From: Bacillota bacterium
GTDB lineage: Bacteria > Bacillota > Limnochordia > Darwinibacteriales > Darwinibacteriaceae
Length of the DNA stretch: 64,000 nucleotides
Direction of reading: 5' to 3'
Assembly: GCA_012837385.1 (NCBI GenBank)
Contig: DURH01000020.1
Coordinates: 129,972-193,971 of the forward strand
Shown: positions 35,396-41,838 of the stretch, piece after piece
Position numbering within the stretch: position 1 is the stretch's first letter
How the letters are laid out: each line of letters starts with the position of its first letter
Made by a program: the position numbers and the translations under genes
Notes under the pieces: model-generated
What the model was told of the DNA's origin: nothing
The model's input: the letters and a program-made list of their open reading frames with translations, nothing else
Databases searched by the model: none

Positions 35396-35594
35396 GGAGG
35401 CCATGATCCGTTTGCAGGAAATCGTGAGGCTCTTGGAACAGGGAGATACCACCTTGGACGAAGCTTTAGCGCTGTTCGAAGAAGGGGTGAAGCTGGCTCG
35501 CTTCTGCAATGATAAGCTGGATGAAGCAGAGGCAAGGATTGAGATCATGATGCAAGAAGGACGCCTGGAGCCGCTGGAGGTGAGGGAAGAGTGA
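35376..35594 (+). CDS. xseB: Exonuclease VII small subunit
   Basis: The 72-residue helical protein starts LRFEEAMIRLQEIVRLLEQG and continues LDEALALFEEGVKLA, the family pattern. Its start lies inside xseA and its end overlaps ispA by 4 bp, so the three are coupled. Confidence 0.93.
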   Translation: MGELRFEEAMIRLQEIVRLLEQGDTTLDEALALFEEGVKLARFCNDKLDEAEARIEIMMQEGRLEPLEVREE

Positions 35595-36484
35595 ACGATC
35601 TGCCTAAACAGTGGGCCGATTATGTTCAACAAGTGGAGCAGATTTTGGATCAGGCTTTACCGGCTGTCCACATACAGCCCAGTGTGCTCCATGAAGCTAT
35701 GCGCTATTCCACATTAGGTGGAGGAAAACGCCTGCGCGCCCTTTTGGTACTAGGTGCCTGCGCTGCAGTTGGGGGAGATGTGAGCAAGACTGCTGGGCTG
35801 GCTGCCGCAGTGGAGATGGTCCACGCCTATTCTCTGATTCATGATGATCTACCCTGCCTAGATGATGATGATTTCAGGCGCGGCAAACCTGCTAACCACA
35901 TTGTATACGGCGAAGCCGTCGCCGTACTGGCTGGCGATGCCCTGCTTACAGAAGCTTTTGCGGAACTGGCCAGGATGCCTGAAAAGTATGGCACCGCTCC
36001 CGAAGTTGCCGTGCGTCTTGTGGGAGAGCTGGCCCAGGGCGCGGGTTCTAGGGGACTAGTGGGCGGCCAGGTGGTGGACATAACAAGCGCAGAGCAGCGG
36101 CCAGATGCGGACACCCTGCACTACATCCACACCCGGAAAACGGGAGCCTTGTTTAAGGCGGCGCTTCGCTGCGGAGCCCTAGTTGGAGGAGCTGATGAGG
36201 AACAGCTCCAGGCCATAACTCGCTACGGTGAGAACTTCGGATTGGCTTTCCAGATCACCGATGACATCTTGGATGAGGTGGGTGAGGCGAACCAACTGGG
36301 CAAGCAGACTGGACGCGATCGCTCCCTGGGAAAACAGACCTATCCCAGGCTCTATGGTTTGGAAAAATCCCAGGAGCTGGCCAGGGAATGCGTCAAGAAC
36401 TGCCTGGATTCCTTGAGCGGTTTTCCCGAGGAAGCTTGGCTCCTCAGGGAACTTGCCTTCTTCGTGCTCCAGCGCAGCCACTAG
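35591..36484 (+). CDS. ispA: Farnesyl diphosphate synthase
   Basis: The 297-residue prenyltransferase has the first aspartate-rich motif HDDLPCLDDDDFRRGK near residue 84 and the second, FQITDDILD, near 222. The four-residue insert between the first-motif aspartates is the type I short-chain pattern. It makes FPP from IPP and DMAPP. dxs lies 1.3 kb on, with the OLE RNA and oapA between, the classical OLE neighbourhood. Confidence 0.95.
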   Translation: MNDLPKQWADYVQQVEQILDQALPAVHIQPSVLHEAMRYSTLGGGKRLRALLVLGACAAVGGDVSKTAGLAAAVEMVHAYSLIHDDLPCLDDDDFRRGKPANHIVYGEAVAVLAGDALLTEAFAELARMPEKYGTAPEVAVRLVGELAQGAGSRGLVGGQVVDITSAEQRPDADTLHYIHTRKTGALFKAALRCGALVGGADEEQLQAITRYGENFGLAFQITDDILDEVGEANQLGKQTGRDRSLGKQTYPRLYGLEKSQELARECVKNCLDSLSGFPEEAWLLRELAFFVLQRSH

Positions 36485-36546: not shown

Positions 36547-36576
36547 TTGCCCAAACCGCGGAGGGTATGCTATAAT
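36547..36576 (+). promoter_or_regulatory. Extended -10 promoter of the OLE RNA
   Basis: TTGCCC (36547-36552), an 18-nt spacer, then TGCTATAAT with TATAAT at 36571-36576. The predicted start (about 36583) falls just before the 12-bp terminal stem of the RNA. So OLE can be made independently of the ispA operon. Confidence 0.72.
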
Positions 36577-36582
36577 GATATC

Positions 36583-37222
36583 ACCCTAGAGATGAATGGC
36601 GCAGTATTCTAGTCGCCTACCTTGTCTTTGAACACGGGCCTAAAAATCCGTTACTGGCACATCGATGAAGTCTCTGGTGGCGGCTTCTAACGCCCAGTTG
36701 GGGGCTGCTGCTGGGGGTTAAGGTTGGAGGGCGATCTGCAAGGGCATGCAGGCGTTGACCCTCCTTCCACGGAGACCCAACCTCGTGGAGACACGGAGTA
36801 CGTGTGTTTACGGCTTGGGATTGAACCTGCACGCGATACGCAATTACAGCTTGTTCGTACATCAGTGTTGGGTGCAGCGTAGCCTGTCTTGAGTGGTGAT
36901 CGGGGGATAGTGGTTGTGGGTGAAGATCCCCTGGCCAGGGAGCTTGATCCTTCGCCTTGAGCGAAAGACCCTTGAAACCATCACTGCAAAAGAGACTAGA
37001 AGATAAGGGTGGCGTCGAGGAAAACTCCTAGACTGTTTCTCAACGAGATGGTGAACTGGGGATTACGGTGTGGTCTAAGTGGCAATCCAGCCTCAGCTTT
37101 GGTGACAAGCGAAAAGATCGGAAAGGGGAAACCGCCAGTCACGGTGACGGACTGGAGGATCTTTGGGAAAACCTGCTGGACCTAAGCCACAATCTTTACT
37201 CAGCTCACTGCCATTCATCTCA
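36583..37222 (+). ncRNA. ole: OLE RNA (ornate large extremophilic RNA)
   Basis: A 640-nt stretch without a coding frame between ispA and an OapA-type membrane-protein gene upstream of dxs; known OLE RNAs are about 600 nt and occur in this neighbourhood. GAGATGAATGGC (36589-36600) is perfectly complementary to GCCATTCATCTC (37210-37221), closing the RNA into one terminal 12-bp stem. Smaller hairpins are visible inside (e.g. ACACG/CGTGT about 36794-36808). OLE forms a membrane ribonucleoprotein with OapA and is linked to alcohol, cold and magnesium stress in Alkalihalobacillus halodurans. The call rests on context, size and end pairing; no covariance model was run. Confidence 0.86.
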
Positions 37223-37253
37223 GTATACATAAGAAAGAGGTTTATGGTAAGTA

Positions 37254-37820
37254 ATGCAGAGTCGATGGAAGGCAGTACTTACTCTTACTTTAGCGACATT
37301 TGTAGTGTCCATAACACTTAATCTGGGTAGTAACAGCGTTCTGGCGGTCGTGCCGGTCACGGTAAGCATGGTGTTACTACTTTTTATTATTCTTATCGGC
37401 GTAATTTTTGACATTTTGGGCGTCTCTGCCGCCGCTGGGGAAGAGGCCCCGTTTCATGCCATGGCCTCGAACCGTGTTCCAGGAGCCAAGCAGGCAATTT
37501 GGTTGGTGCGCCACGCCGATGGTGTTTCCACAGTCTGCAACGACCTAATAGGCGACGTGGTAGGTACCTTGAGCGGCGCCCTTGGCGTAGCCATTCTGCT
37601 GCAGCTGCGCGGTTCTGCGCCGAAGCTCAGCGAGGCCTTGGCCAACACGCTGATGGTGGCCTTGATTGCTGCAATCACAGTTGGCGGTAAGGCCTTGGGG
37701 AAGAACGTGGCCATCTCCAAGTCCACCACCATTCTCCTGGTAGCGGGCAAGATCTTGTATTCCATGGAGAAAATAGGGGCGAGATTCCGCTCCCAGGCGG
37801 CAAAGAATAAAAAGAGGTAG
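37254..37820 (+). CDS. oapA: OLE-associated membrane protein OapA
   Basis: The 188-residue protein has about four hydrophobic segments (LTLATFVVSITLNLG, VTVSMVLLLFIILIGVIFDI, GTLSGALGVAILLQL, TLMVALIAAITVG) and a very basic tail (RFRSQAAKNKKR), fitting an RNA-binding membrane protein. It lies 32 nt after the OLE RNA and 6 nt before dxs. The AAAGAGG ribosome-binding site is 13 nt from ATG 37254, rather far; a nearer ATG at 37244 is in a different, short frame. Known OapA dimers bind OLE and hold it at the membrane. Confidence 0.87.
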   Translation: MQSRWKAVLTLTLATFVVSITLNLGSNSVLAVVPVTVSMVLLLFIILIGVIFDILGVSAAAGEEAPFHAMASNRVPGAKQAIWLVRHADGVSTVCNDLIGDVVGTLSGALGVAILLQLRGSAPKLSEALANTLMVALIAAITVGGKALGKNVAISKSTTILLVAGKILYSMEKIGARFRSQAAKNKKR

Positions 37821-37825
37821 GGATT

Positions 37826-39721
37826 ATGCGCGAAGAGCTGCTGGCACAGATCAACTCTCCTGAGGACCTTAAGAAATTGGATGTACGCAGCTTGGAACAG
37901 CTGGCCAAGGAGATTCGAGACTGCATCGTTGCCACCGTGGAGAAGACAGGTGGCCATCTCGGTGCCAATCTAGGAGTTGTGGAACTCACCCTTGCACTGC
38001 ACTCCGTGCTTTCGACGCCGCGGGATAAGATTATCTGGGATGTAGGGCATCAGTGCTATGCACACAAGCTCATTACCGGACGCAGGGATCGTTTTCACAC
38101 TTTAAGGCAGTGGGGAGGGCTCTCTGGCTTCCCAGTTCCGAGGGAGAGCGAGCATGACCATTTTGGGGTAGGACACAGCTCTACCTCAATTTCTGCTGCC
38201 GCGGGAATGGTGATCGCCCGCGATTTGAAGGGCCAAGACTTCAAGGTGGTCGCGGTAATCGGCGATGGAGCCCTAACTGGGGGCATGGCCTTTGAGGGCC
38301 TTAACCATATCGGATCCCTGGGCAGGGATATTATTGTGGTCCTCAACGACAATGAGATGTCCATCACCAGCAATGTGGGTGCCCTCAGCGACTACTTGGG
38401 CAGGATTCGTTCCCACAGCTTTCTTTACCAGGCTAGGGAAGGCTTGGCAGCCTTTCTGCGCAGGATTCCCTTAGTGGGACAGCCCTTGGCCAAGATTGCC
38501 CATAGGCTCAAAATCACCCTTAAGCAGATGCTGCCGGGCCAGTTTTTTGAAGAACTGGGGTTTGCCTATTTGGGACCCTTCGACGGGCACAACATTGGTG
38601 AACTGCAGAGGGCAATTCGGGCTGGATTGGCACGCCGCGGCCCGGTGCTGATCCATGTTTATACCCAGAAAGGCAGGGGGCACGCCTTGGCGGAAGAGAG
38701 TCCGCACCGCTACCACGGCGTTAGCCCCAGTAATGGCGCGCCTCCATCCACGGCACCCTCGTTCAGCGATGTGTTTGGTGAGTCCCTGGTGAGGTTGGCT
38801 GAGGACAATGGGAACATTGTGGCCATCACTGCCGCCATGCGGGATGGGACAGGCTTGGGCCCCTTTGCCAAGGCTTTTCCAGAGCGGTTTTTTGACGTGG
38901 GAATTGCCGAGCAGCACGCCTTGACATTGGCGGCAGGCATGGCTAAGGAAGGACTTCGCCCGGTTGTGGCCATCTATTCCACCTTTCTGCAGCGGGGTTA
39001 TGACCAGATTATCCACGATTTGGCACTGCAGAAACTCCCGGTGGTGATCTGCGTGGATCGGGCTGGAGTGGTGGGTGATGACGGCGCCACACACCAGGGT
39101 GTTTTCGACATCAGTTTCCTGCGAGCGGTACCAGGCCTGACTATCCTGGCGCCACGCACCGCCAGTGAGCTCCAGGCTATGCTGGAGTGGGCGCTGCAGC
39201 AAGAGGGTCCAGTAGCCATCCGCTACCCCCGGGGTGAGGCGGCAGCTCTAGAACCATGCCCTCGTTTTCCGACTGCCCACAGCATTCCTCCTGTGGAAGT
39301 GAAGCAGGGGCGAGACGGGGTGATGTTCGCAGTGGGTCCCATGGTGGAGGTGGCATTGGCAGCTGCGGAACTGTTAGAACCAGAGATCAGCTTTGCTGTG
39401 GTCAATATGAGGGCGCTGAAACCCCTAGACTCTTCGTTCGTTAAGCAAGTTGTTGAAGGGAAGAAATGCGTGGTTACGCTGGAAGATCATGTGCTGGCTG
39501 GAGGGTTTGGCAGCAGCATCCTCGAAGTACTTCAAGGAATGGGCGGCAGTGCAGCTCAGTGCAGGGTAGTGCGCCTTGGCTATCCCGATGCGTTTATCCC
39601 CCATGGCCCCATTGAACGACTGCATGAGGAGTATGGCTTAACCGCACCGCAGGTGGCAGAAGTTCTGAGGCAAGGTTTATCTGGGCATAATCTGCAAGTT
39701 TTAGTGGGTAGGGATGTCTAG
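37826..39721 (+). CDS. dxs: 1-deoxy-D-xylulose-5-phosphate synthase
   Basis: The 631-residue thiamine-diphosphate enzyme makes DXP from pyruvate and glyceraldehyde-3-phosphate, the first step of the MEP isoprenoid route. HLGANLGVVELTLALH near residue 48, GDGALTGGMAFEGLNH (ThDP motif) near 150, and DVGIAEQHALTLAAGMA in the pyrimidine domain are visible. Its stop overlaps the tlyA start. Confidence 0.96.
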   Translation: MREELLAQINSPEDLKKLDVRSLEQLAKEIRDCIVATVEKTGGHLGANLGVVELTLALHSVLSTPRDKIIWDVGHQCYAHKLITGRRDRFHTLRQWGGLSGFPVPRESEHDHFGVGHSSTSISAAAGMVIARDLKGQDFKVVAVIGDGALTGGMAFEGLNHIGSLGRDIIVVLNDNEMSITSNVGALSDYLGRIRSHSFLYQAREGLAAFLRRIPLVGQPLAKIAHRLKITLKQMLPGQFFEELGFAYLGPFDGHNIGELQRAIRAGLARRGPVLIHVYTQKGRGHALAEESPHRYHGVSPSNGAPPSTAPSFSDVFGESLVRLAEDNGNIVAITAAMRDGTGLGPFAKAFPERFFDVGIAEQHALTLAAGMAKEGLRPVVAIYSTFLQRGYDQIIHDLALQKLPVVICVDRAGVVGDDGATHQGVFDISFLRAVPGLTILAPRTASELQAMLEWALQQEGPVAIRYPRGEAAALEPCPRFPTAHSIPPVEVKQGRDGVMFAVGPMVEVALAAAELLEPEISFAVVNMRALKPLDSSFVKQVVEGKKCVVTLEDHVLAGGFGSSILEVLQGMGGSAAQCRVVRLGYPDAFIPHGPIERLHEEYGLTAPQVAEVLRQGLSGHNLQVLVGRDV

Positions 39722-40530: not shown

Positions 40531-41381
40531 TGAGGATTGGCATTGTACCTCACACAGGAAAACCAGTCGCCTTGGAGTTAAGTAGGAAACTCGCAGATTA
40601 TTTGGACCAGCGTGAAGTGGGCTGGGAGATGATTCTTTCCCCTCGAGAGGCGGAGCTGGCCGATCTAGACCTCGTTGTCGTTTTGGGCGGAGATGGAACC
40701 CTGCTCAACGCAGCCCGGCTGGCCAGCGATAGCCAGGTACCTGTGTTTGGGGTGAATGTGGGCCATCTGGGCTTCCTGACCGAAGTGGAAACCGATGGGC
40801 TCATGCCAGCCATGGAGAGGCTTTTGGCAAGAGATTACACCATTGAGAAGAGAATGCTGATCGGTGCTTCCGTGAATCGTCAGGGCCGAGAGGTATCAAG
40901 GCACGTGGCTCTAAACGATTTCGTTATTACCAGGGGTACCTTTGCCCGCATCATCGAACTGAGCATTTTCGCCGATGGACAGCATGTTACTGATTATGTG
41001 GCCGATGGAGTGATCATTTCTACCCCCACGGGATCCACTGCCTATTCCTTAGCTGCAGGAGGCCCCATCATCGAACCTCTCCTGGATTCCATCTGCATTA
41101 CTCCCATCTGTGCCCACTCTCTGGCAGCCCGCTCCGTTGTGACCAGGCCTGAAGTAGAGGTCCAGGTGCGTTTGAATCGTGCTGGTGAGCCAGTAATGCT
41201 GACCATCGATGGTCAAGATGGTTTTTCCCTGCTTACAGGCGATCGAGTAACGATCCAGAAGGCAGAAAAACCAGCACTATTTGTAAGATTAGGTGACAGA
41301 GGGTTCTTCCAGGTACTTCATTCCCGGATGAAAATGCCTCAGATGGGGGGTGGGATCCGTGAAGCAGAGGCGTCAGAATAA
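40530..41381 (+). CDS. nadK: NAD kinase
   Basis: The 283-residue enzyme phosphorylates NAD to NADP. It has the GGDGTLLNAAR motif near residue 52, NVGHLGFLTEV, and STPTGSTAYSLAAGGPI. ATG 40530 overlaps the tlyA stop (TGATG). It is upstream of argR, as usual in Bacillota. Confidence 0.95.
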   Translation: MRIGIVPHTGKPVALELSRKLADYLDQREVGWEMILSPREAELADLDLVVVLGGDGTLLNAARLASDSQVPVFGVNVGHLGFLTEVETDGLMPAMERLLARDYTIEKRMLIGASVNRQGREVSRHVALNDFVITRGTFARIIELSIFADGQHVTDYVADGVIISTPTGSTAYSLAAGGPIIEPLLDSICITPICAHSLAARSVVTRPEVEVQVRLNRAGEPVMLTIDGQDGFSLLTGDRVTIQKAEKPALFVRLGDRGFFQVLHSRMKMPQMGGGIREAEASE

Positions 41382-41838
41382 GCTGTTGGAAATCGTGAGA
41401 GAGCAGAACGTGGAAACGCAGGAAGCCCTTATGGAGCTTCTGCATGACCATGGTTTCAAGGTGACCCAGGCTACCGTTTCCAGAGACATTAAGGAACTGC
41501 GCTTAGTTAAAGTCCCCGATGGCCAGGGAGGCTATAAGTACTCTCTGCCTGCAGCTGTCACCATGGGTGATCTGCTCAGGCGTGCCAGGCGTACCTTCAG
41601 GGACTATGTACGCGGTGTGGATTTCAGCGGACCCTTCATTATGATCAAAACCTATCCCGGTGGAGCACATGCCGTAGCCGCCATTATCGATGAGTTGGAT
41701 TGGCCTGAGATGGTGGGCAGCATCGCTGGTGATGACTCGATCCTGGTGTTGTCTCGCGATCCTGAACGTAAAGAGAATCGACCACAGGGCCCTGCTGGCA
41801 AACTGTACGCGCGCATCCAAGAATTGGTGGAGGGATGA
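41359..41838 (+). CDS. argR: Arginine repressor ArgR
   Basis: The 159-residue protein has an N-terminal winged HTH (KQRRQNKLLEIVREQN, TQATVSRDIKELRLVKV with TVSRD) and a C-terminal arginine-binding/hexamer domain (GAHAVAAIIDELDWPEMVGSIAGDD). GTG 41359, with GGGGGG upstream, starts at the usual place; GTG 41350 would extend it by three. It overlaps nadK by 23 bp. Confidence 0.94.
   Translation: MKQRRQNKLLEIVREQNVETQEALMELLHDHGFKVTQATVSRDIKELRLVKVPDGQGGYKYSLPAAVTMGDLLRRARRTFRDYVRGVDFSGPFIMIKTYPGGAHAVAAIIDELDWPEMVGSIAGDDSILVLSRDPERKENRPQGPAGKLYARIQELVEG

Follow-up and report, generated by a model that had tools for sequence, protein, structure and literature searches.

The 64-kb stretch of DNA analysed here (the window) belongs to a draft genome assembly of an uncultured bacterium. 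On its forward strand, a noncoding stretch of 640 nt is found between ispA and oapA, and the gene order reads ispA, OLE, oapA, dxs, tlyA, nadK, argR and then a recN-like ORF, the last assigned by eye. The argR gene (41350-41838) shares a gene cluster with OLE; its product is an unpublished candidate OLE partner according to the OLE literature (PMC12265935). The main features of the locus are:

35591..36484, + strand: ispA, farnesyl diphosphate synthase, upstream neighbour (NCBIfam NF045485)
36547..36576, + strand: OLE promoter, TTGCCC - 18 nt - TATAAT with a TG extension (TGCTATAAT, 36568-36576), found by consensus scan and kept in relatives
36580..37230, + strand: OLE RNA (RF01071, model 1-616); likely transcript ~36583 to ~37222
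37254..37820, + strand: oapA, OLE-associated membrane protein, 188 aa (alignment, hydrophobic segments, predicted fold)
37826..39721, + strand: dxs, downstream neighbour (NCBIfam TIGR00204)

Identity, fold and transcription of the RNA

When the whole window was searched against every Rfam family, OLE (RF01071) was identified at 36580-37230 on the + strand, covering model positions 1-616 of 616 with 459 bits (E 1.6e-131; the gathering cut-off of the family is 50 bits). No other Rfam family, riboswitch families included, was matched in the 64-kb window. The alignment to the model was unbroken from 1 to 616, with insertions and a few single-base gaps only, and the P7, P8, P9 and P13 regions were all there, which assigns the RNA to the full-length type. 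The host genome has one copy of OLE, and no OLE-like DNA was found in phages. These data bear out the original prediction, which had named the stretch as OLE RNA and proposed running the OLE covariance model on 36580-37230; synteny (ispA-OLE-oapA-dxs), the partner proteins and covariation all agree with the model match. The bounds it had given, 36583-37222, were correct to a few bases, and the 640 nt were rightly described as noncoding: the longest ORF contained in them, on the minus strand, is 81 aa long, and no ORF there resembles a gene. We put the probability that the stretch encodes a full-length OLE, the RNA on which a membrane ribonucleoprotein is assembled, at about 0.97. It is a further record of a known RNA class, not a new kind; OLE is a large stress RNA that associates with the membrane and is known from many Bacillota.

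The two ends of the RNA had been predicted to pair perfectly over 12 bp, as is the case for the following arms:

36589..36600, + strand: P1, 5' arm GAGATGAATGGC, 12 perfect pairs with 37210-37221
37210..37221, + strand: P1, 3' arm GCCATTCATCTC, 12 perfect pairs with 36589-36600

About 0.01 occurrences of such a 12-mer would be expected by chance in the 64-kb window. Among 25 OLE RNAs of the host's order, nine of the 12 pairs showed two-sided changes and 94.7% of cells were paired, a value that fell to 32-49% when the partner was shifted by 1-3 columns as a control. This end helix is the known P1 of the published model (named in PMC12265935), and it is left unpaired in the Rfam RF01071 consensus structure. 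In the folded OLE, P1 closes the ends of the RNA.

The folding energy of the 640-nt stretch was 5 sd lower than that of shuffles, and 140 of the 158 model pairs were canonical in the window RNA, many of the 18 non-canonical ones falling within the variable outer P9. When the RF01071 structure was projected on the same 25 RNAs, 88.7% of cells were paired over the 158 model pairs, and 67 pairs had two-sided changes, compared with 39.7 in shuffles. An RNAalifold structure of the P9 segment was dropped, as it was without covariation support.

The original prediction of a promoter of the extended -10 type belonging to OLE itself was also upheld. The sequence TTGCCC (36547-36552) is followed by TATAAT (36571-36576) with TG one base ahead, giving 10 of 12 consensus letters. 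The consensus scan found four promoter-like sites in the OLE region where 1.1 were expected; however, TTGC...TG-N-TATAAT recurs upstream of OLE throughout the host's family at approximately the same distance, and because of this conservation the element is more than a chance match. OLE is most likely transcribed from this promoter at 36547-36576. Since no terminator-like site was seen between OLE and oapA in a sequence scan of the region, OLE is probably co-transcribed with oapA-dxs; the transcript would run on into oapA and dxs, and the OLE 3' end would then be trimmed.

Such co-transcription is also what would be expected if the stretch were a long leader of the oapA-dxs mRNA, i.e., a riboswitch or other cis-regulator, and not a free-standing OLE. 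We consider this reading very improbable, because the match is to the full OLE model and to no riboswitch family, and because the covarying P1 joins both ends as in a self-contained RNA. In addition, another genome of the order (G034, see below) has a second OLE that is distant from oapA and dxs and carries a promoter of its own, and the OLE of H. halodurans is abundant and works within a particle (PMC12265935).

Partner proteins and their expected sites

The original prediction of an adjoining OapA-type gene was confirmed. The encoded protein aligned along its length with 14 OapA proteins (38-80% identity), of which one is from Carboxydothermus islandicus and another from Oceanobacillus; the CND..GD, FD and GK motifs were invariant. 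Several of the aligned genes were checked, Carboxydothermus and Oceanobacillus among them, and were preceded by a full OLE RNA. The protein contains four hydrophobic segments as well as a basic tail, and its predicted structure (mean pLDDT 78) had CNNM magnesium transporters as its best PDB matches (probability 1.00, E 5e-3). A relation between OapA and MpfA has been published (PMC11332333). In keeping with that relation the predicted fold is closest to CNNM, and in some relatives OapA scores above the Pfam cut-off for CNNM; unlike CNNM/MpfA, however, OapA does not have the length to hold CBS or CorC domains, and it is tied to OLE. Searches of Pfam and NCBIfam gave no match to the window OapA, and both libraries appear to be without an OapA model.

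The genes of the other known partners were found in the host genome. A KOW Pfam search for OapB returned NusG, L24 and an unrelated membrane protein, and the gene was instead located by its usual position between map and infA, its product having OLE-associated protein B as best PDB match (E 1.8e-9). The OapC/YbxF gene is upstream of rpsL, with YbxF as best match, and bS21 is encoded elsewhere on the window's contig. No match to a CNNM/MpfA gene was found in the host genome. OapB, OapC/YbxF and bS21 without CNNM/MpfA is the published signature of OLE-using species.

A decayed, functionless OLE relic, to which some non-canonical pairs in outer P9 might point, is likewise very improbable, as the RNA is full length with intact conserved blocks, 67 pairs covary across relatives, the partner gene set is complete and the promoter is conserved.

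The window RNA carries, in its sequence, the loops and protein sites that have been described in other species. The helix names used below are our own assignments, based on the text of PMC12286853, PMC12265935, PMC9723947 and PMC12054373, and the sites were placed by sequence:

36639..36649, + strand: A-rich hairpin loop CCTAAAAATCC, P4 loop; five A invariant in 25 sequences
36660..36671, + strand: conserved joining segment CATCGATGAAGT, with almost no variation among 25 sequences; expected to be the kink-turn side of the OapC site
36690..36698, + strand: P5 loop ACGCCCAGT; its GCCC is able to pair with the GGGC that a second RNA has in its P6.1 loop
36739..36748, + strand: P6.1 loop CAAGGGCATG
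36760..36765, + strand: CCTCCT (CCUCCU) in P6, which mimics the 16S anti-Shine-Dalgarno; expected bS21 site
36931..36938, + strand: P9 kissing loop, GGCC palindrome; GGCC invariant in 25 sequences, stem covaries
36951..36965, + strand: extra hairpin TTCGC-CTTGA-GCGAA directly after the P9 kissing arm; an insertion in the cmscan alignment, missing from the Rfam model
37101..37148, + strand: GGTGAC loops (37101, 37143) in the P12.2/P13 region, expected OapB site

The A-rich P4 loop is said to make an A-A dimer bridge (PMC12286853, PMC12265935), the P5 and P6.1 loops have a loop-loop role between two RNAs (PMC12265935) and the P9 GGCC has a kissing-loop role (PMC12286853). The kink-turn segment has a role in the OapC site and the P12.2/P13 region is bound by OapB (PMC9723947), and the anti-Shine-Dalgarno mimic has been described as the bS21 site (PMC12054373). 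Both dimerisation loops, the A-rich P4 loop and the P9 GGCC palindrome, are present in the window RNA. By analogy with the published work on other species, two OLE copies would dimerise via their A-rich P4 loops, their P5/P6 loops and the P9 palindrome, OapB, OapC and bS21 would bind their OLE sites, and OapA, the product of the next gene, would anchor the dimer in the membrane. The resulting particle would help the cell withstand stress, such as cold, alcohols, magnesium and a poor carbon source.

The window OLE resembles the full-length OLEs (RF01071) of Halalkalibacterium halodurans, Clostridium acetobutylicum and Carboxydothermus in model length, P1 and conserved blocks, and shares with them both the GGCC kissing loop and the A-rich P4 loop, as well as the anti-Shine-Dalgarno mimic, an oapA gene immediately downstream and isoprenoid genes as neighbours. 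It differs in having the extra hairpin at 36951-36965 and in its host, an uncultured lineage. OLE variants 1 (TANB77) and 2 (RF39) belong to the same RNA class (PMC11332333); in these P7-P8 is shortened or missing and the hosts are mostly without OapB and OapC, and variant 1 is often without the P13 OapB site (PMC11332333). The window OLE, in contrast, keeps the P7, P8 and P13 regions, and its host encodes both OapB and OapC.

OLE among relatives of the host

Within the order, 33 of 37 genomes have OLE, and within the class 64 of 73; the full-length form is the norm in the host's lineage. Among 61 relatives, OapA was present in 53 of 54 that have OLE and in none of the seven that lack it. CNNM genes showed the opposite trend (20/54 OLE-positive versus 6/7 OLE-negative relatives; Fisher p 0.035, uncorrected for kinship), and the tendency of OLE hosts to lack MpfA is seen in the host genome as well as in the relatives. 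The spread of OLE in the class and the partner/CNNM pattern agree with the published GTDB survey, which counted 2,822 Bacillota genomes with OLE (PMC11332333).

The original prediction had valued the RNA as coming from a new lineage that would help define the fold. The newness is weak, since nearly all relatives have OLE. Covariation in the relatives' alignment is strong both for P1 and for the domain left unresolved by cryo-EM, which aids modelling of the domain 2 fold. The locus adds a well-supported OLE with a full partner set from an uncultured lineage, together with about two dozen aligned relatives. A little is new beyond this: a family-specific hairpin, a duplicated OLE in G034 and an OLE without OapA in G038, the last two resting on draft assemblies.

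The extra hairpin is limited to the host's family and is a gap in the order's other families. Its stem is TTCGC/GCGAA in the window and TCCGC/GCGGA, TCCAC/GTGGA or CTATC/GATAG in family relatives. Taken singly the stems are weakly unusual, with shuffles matching them in 2-36% of trials in a per-sequence test, and for this reason the support for the hairpin is its recurrence with changing sequence.

The draft assembly of G034 has two full-length OLEs but only one OapA; the two copies share 89% identity, and each is the nearest sequence to the other. Each copy has a TTGCCG-17-TATAAT/TATACT promoter and its own, separately compensated P1 pairing. The second copy (L100 8354-8992, - strand, on G034:C52, also L084) scored 472 bits and has no adjoining oapA or dxs. 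Next to it are genes for a CDF cation transporter and a flippase-like protein, and a CNNM/CBS gene that is broken; a pairing of OLE with MpfA at this locus was set aside, the CNNM gene being split into two frames with a piece missing. In G038, a 99% complete draft, a full OLE (L086, G038:C36, ~1527-2200, 475 bits) lies between ispA and dxs (dxs from 2326), and a profile search of this draft genome detected no OapA, at the OLE locus or elsewhere. If confirmed in finished genomes, the duplicate in G034 and the OapA-less G038 would bear on whether OLE can act without a one-to-one tie to OapA.

A bolder combination of these findings would be that the extra hairpin is an added arm of the P9 arch that docks a partner absent from the studied species, and also that the order has OLEs working apart from a neighbouring OapA (the second copy of G034 and the OLE of G038). 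We regard this joint proposal as unlikely; if it were true, the OLE class would be more modular than the picture of one OLE with one OapA.

Draft contigs often break within OLE (L082; G021, G033, G044, G062, G063, G072), probably due to the conservation of OLE between co-occurring species, and a partial OLE at a contig end is therefore not to be taken as a variant. A 295-nt "short OLE" of G019 was rejected as a minimal variant because its contig stops inside the RNA, and the partial OLEs of G033, G044, G062, G063 and G072, most of which start or stop at a contig end, were read as assembly breaks. At another locus (L085, G044:C48), oapA is convergent to OLE, the two being on opposite strands and tail to tail, followed by tlyA and without dxs. 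A short contig with OLE and oapA (L058) is binned as Acetobacteraceae (Pseudomonadota), probably through a binning error.
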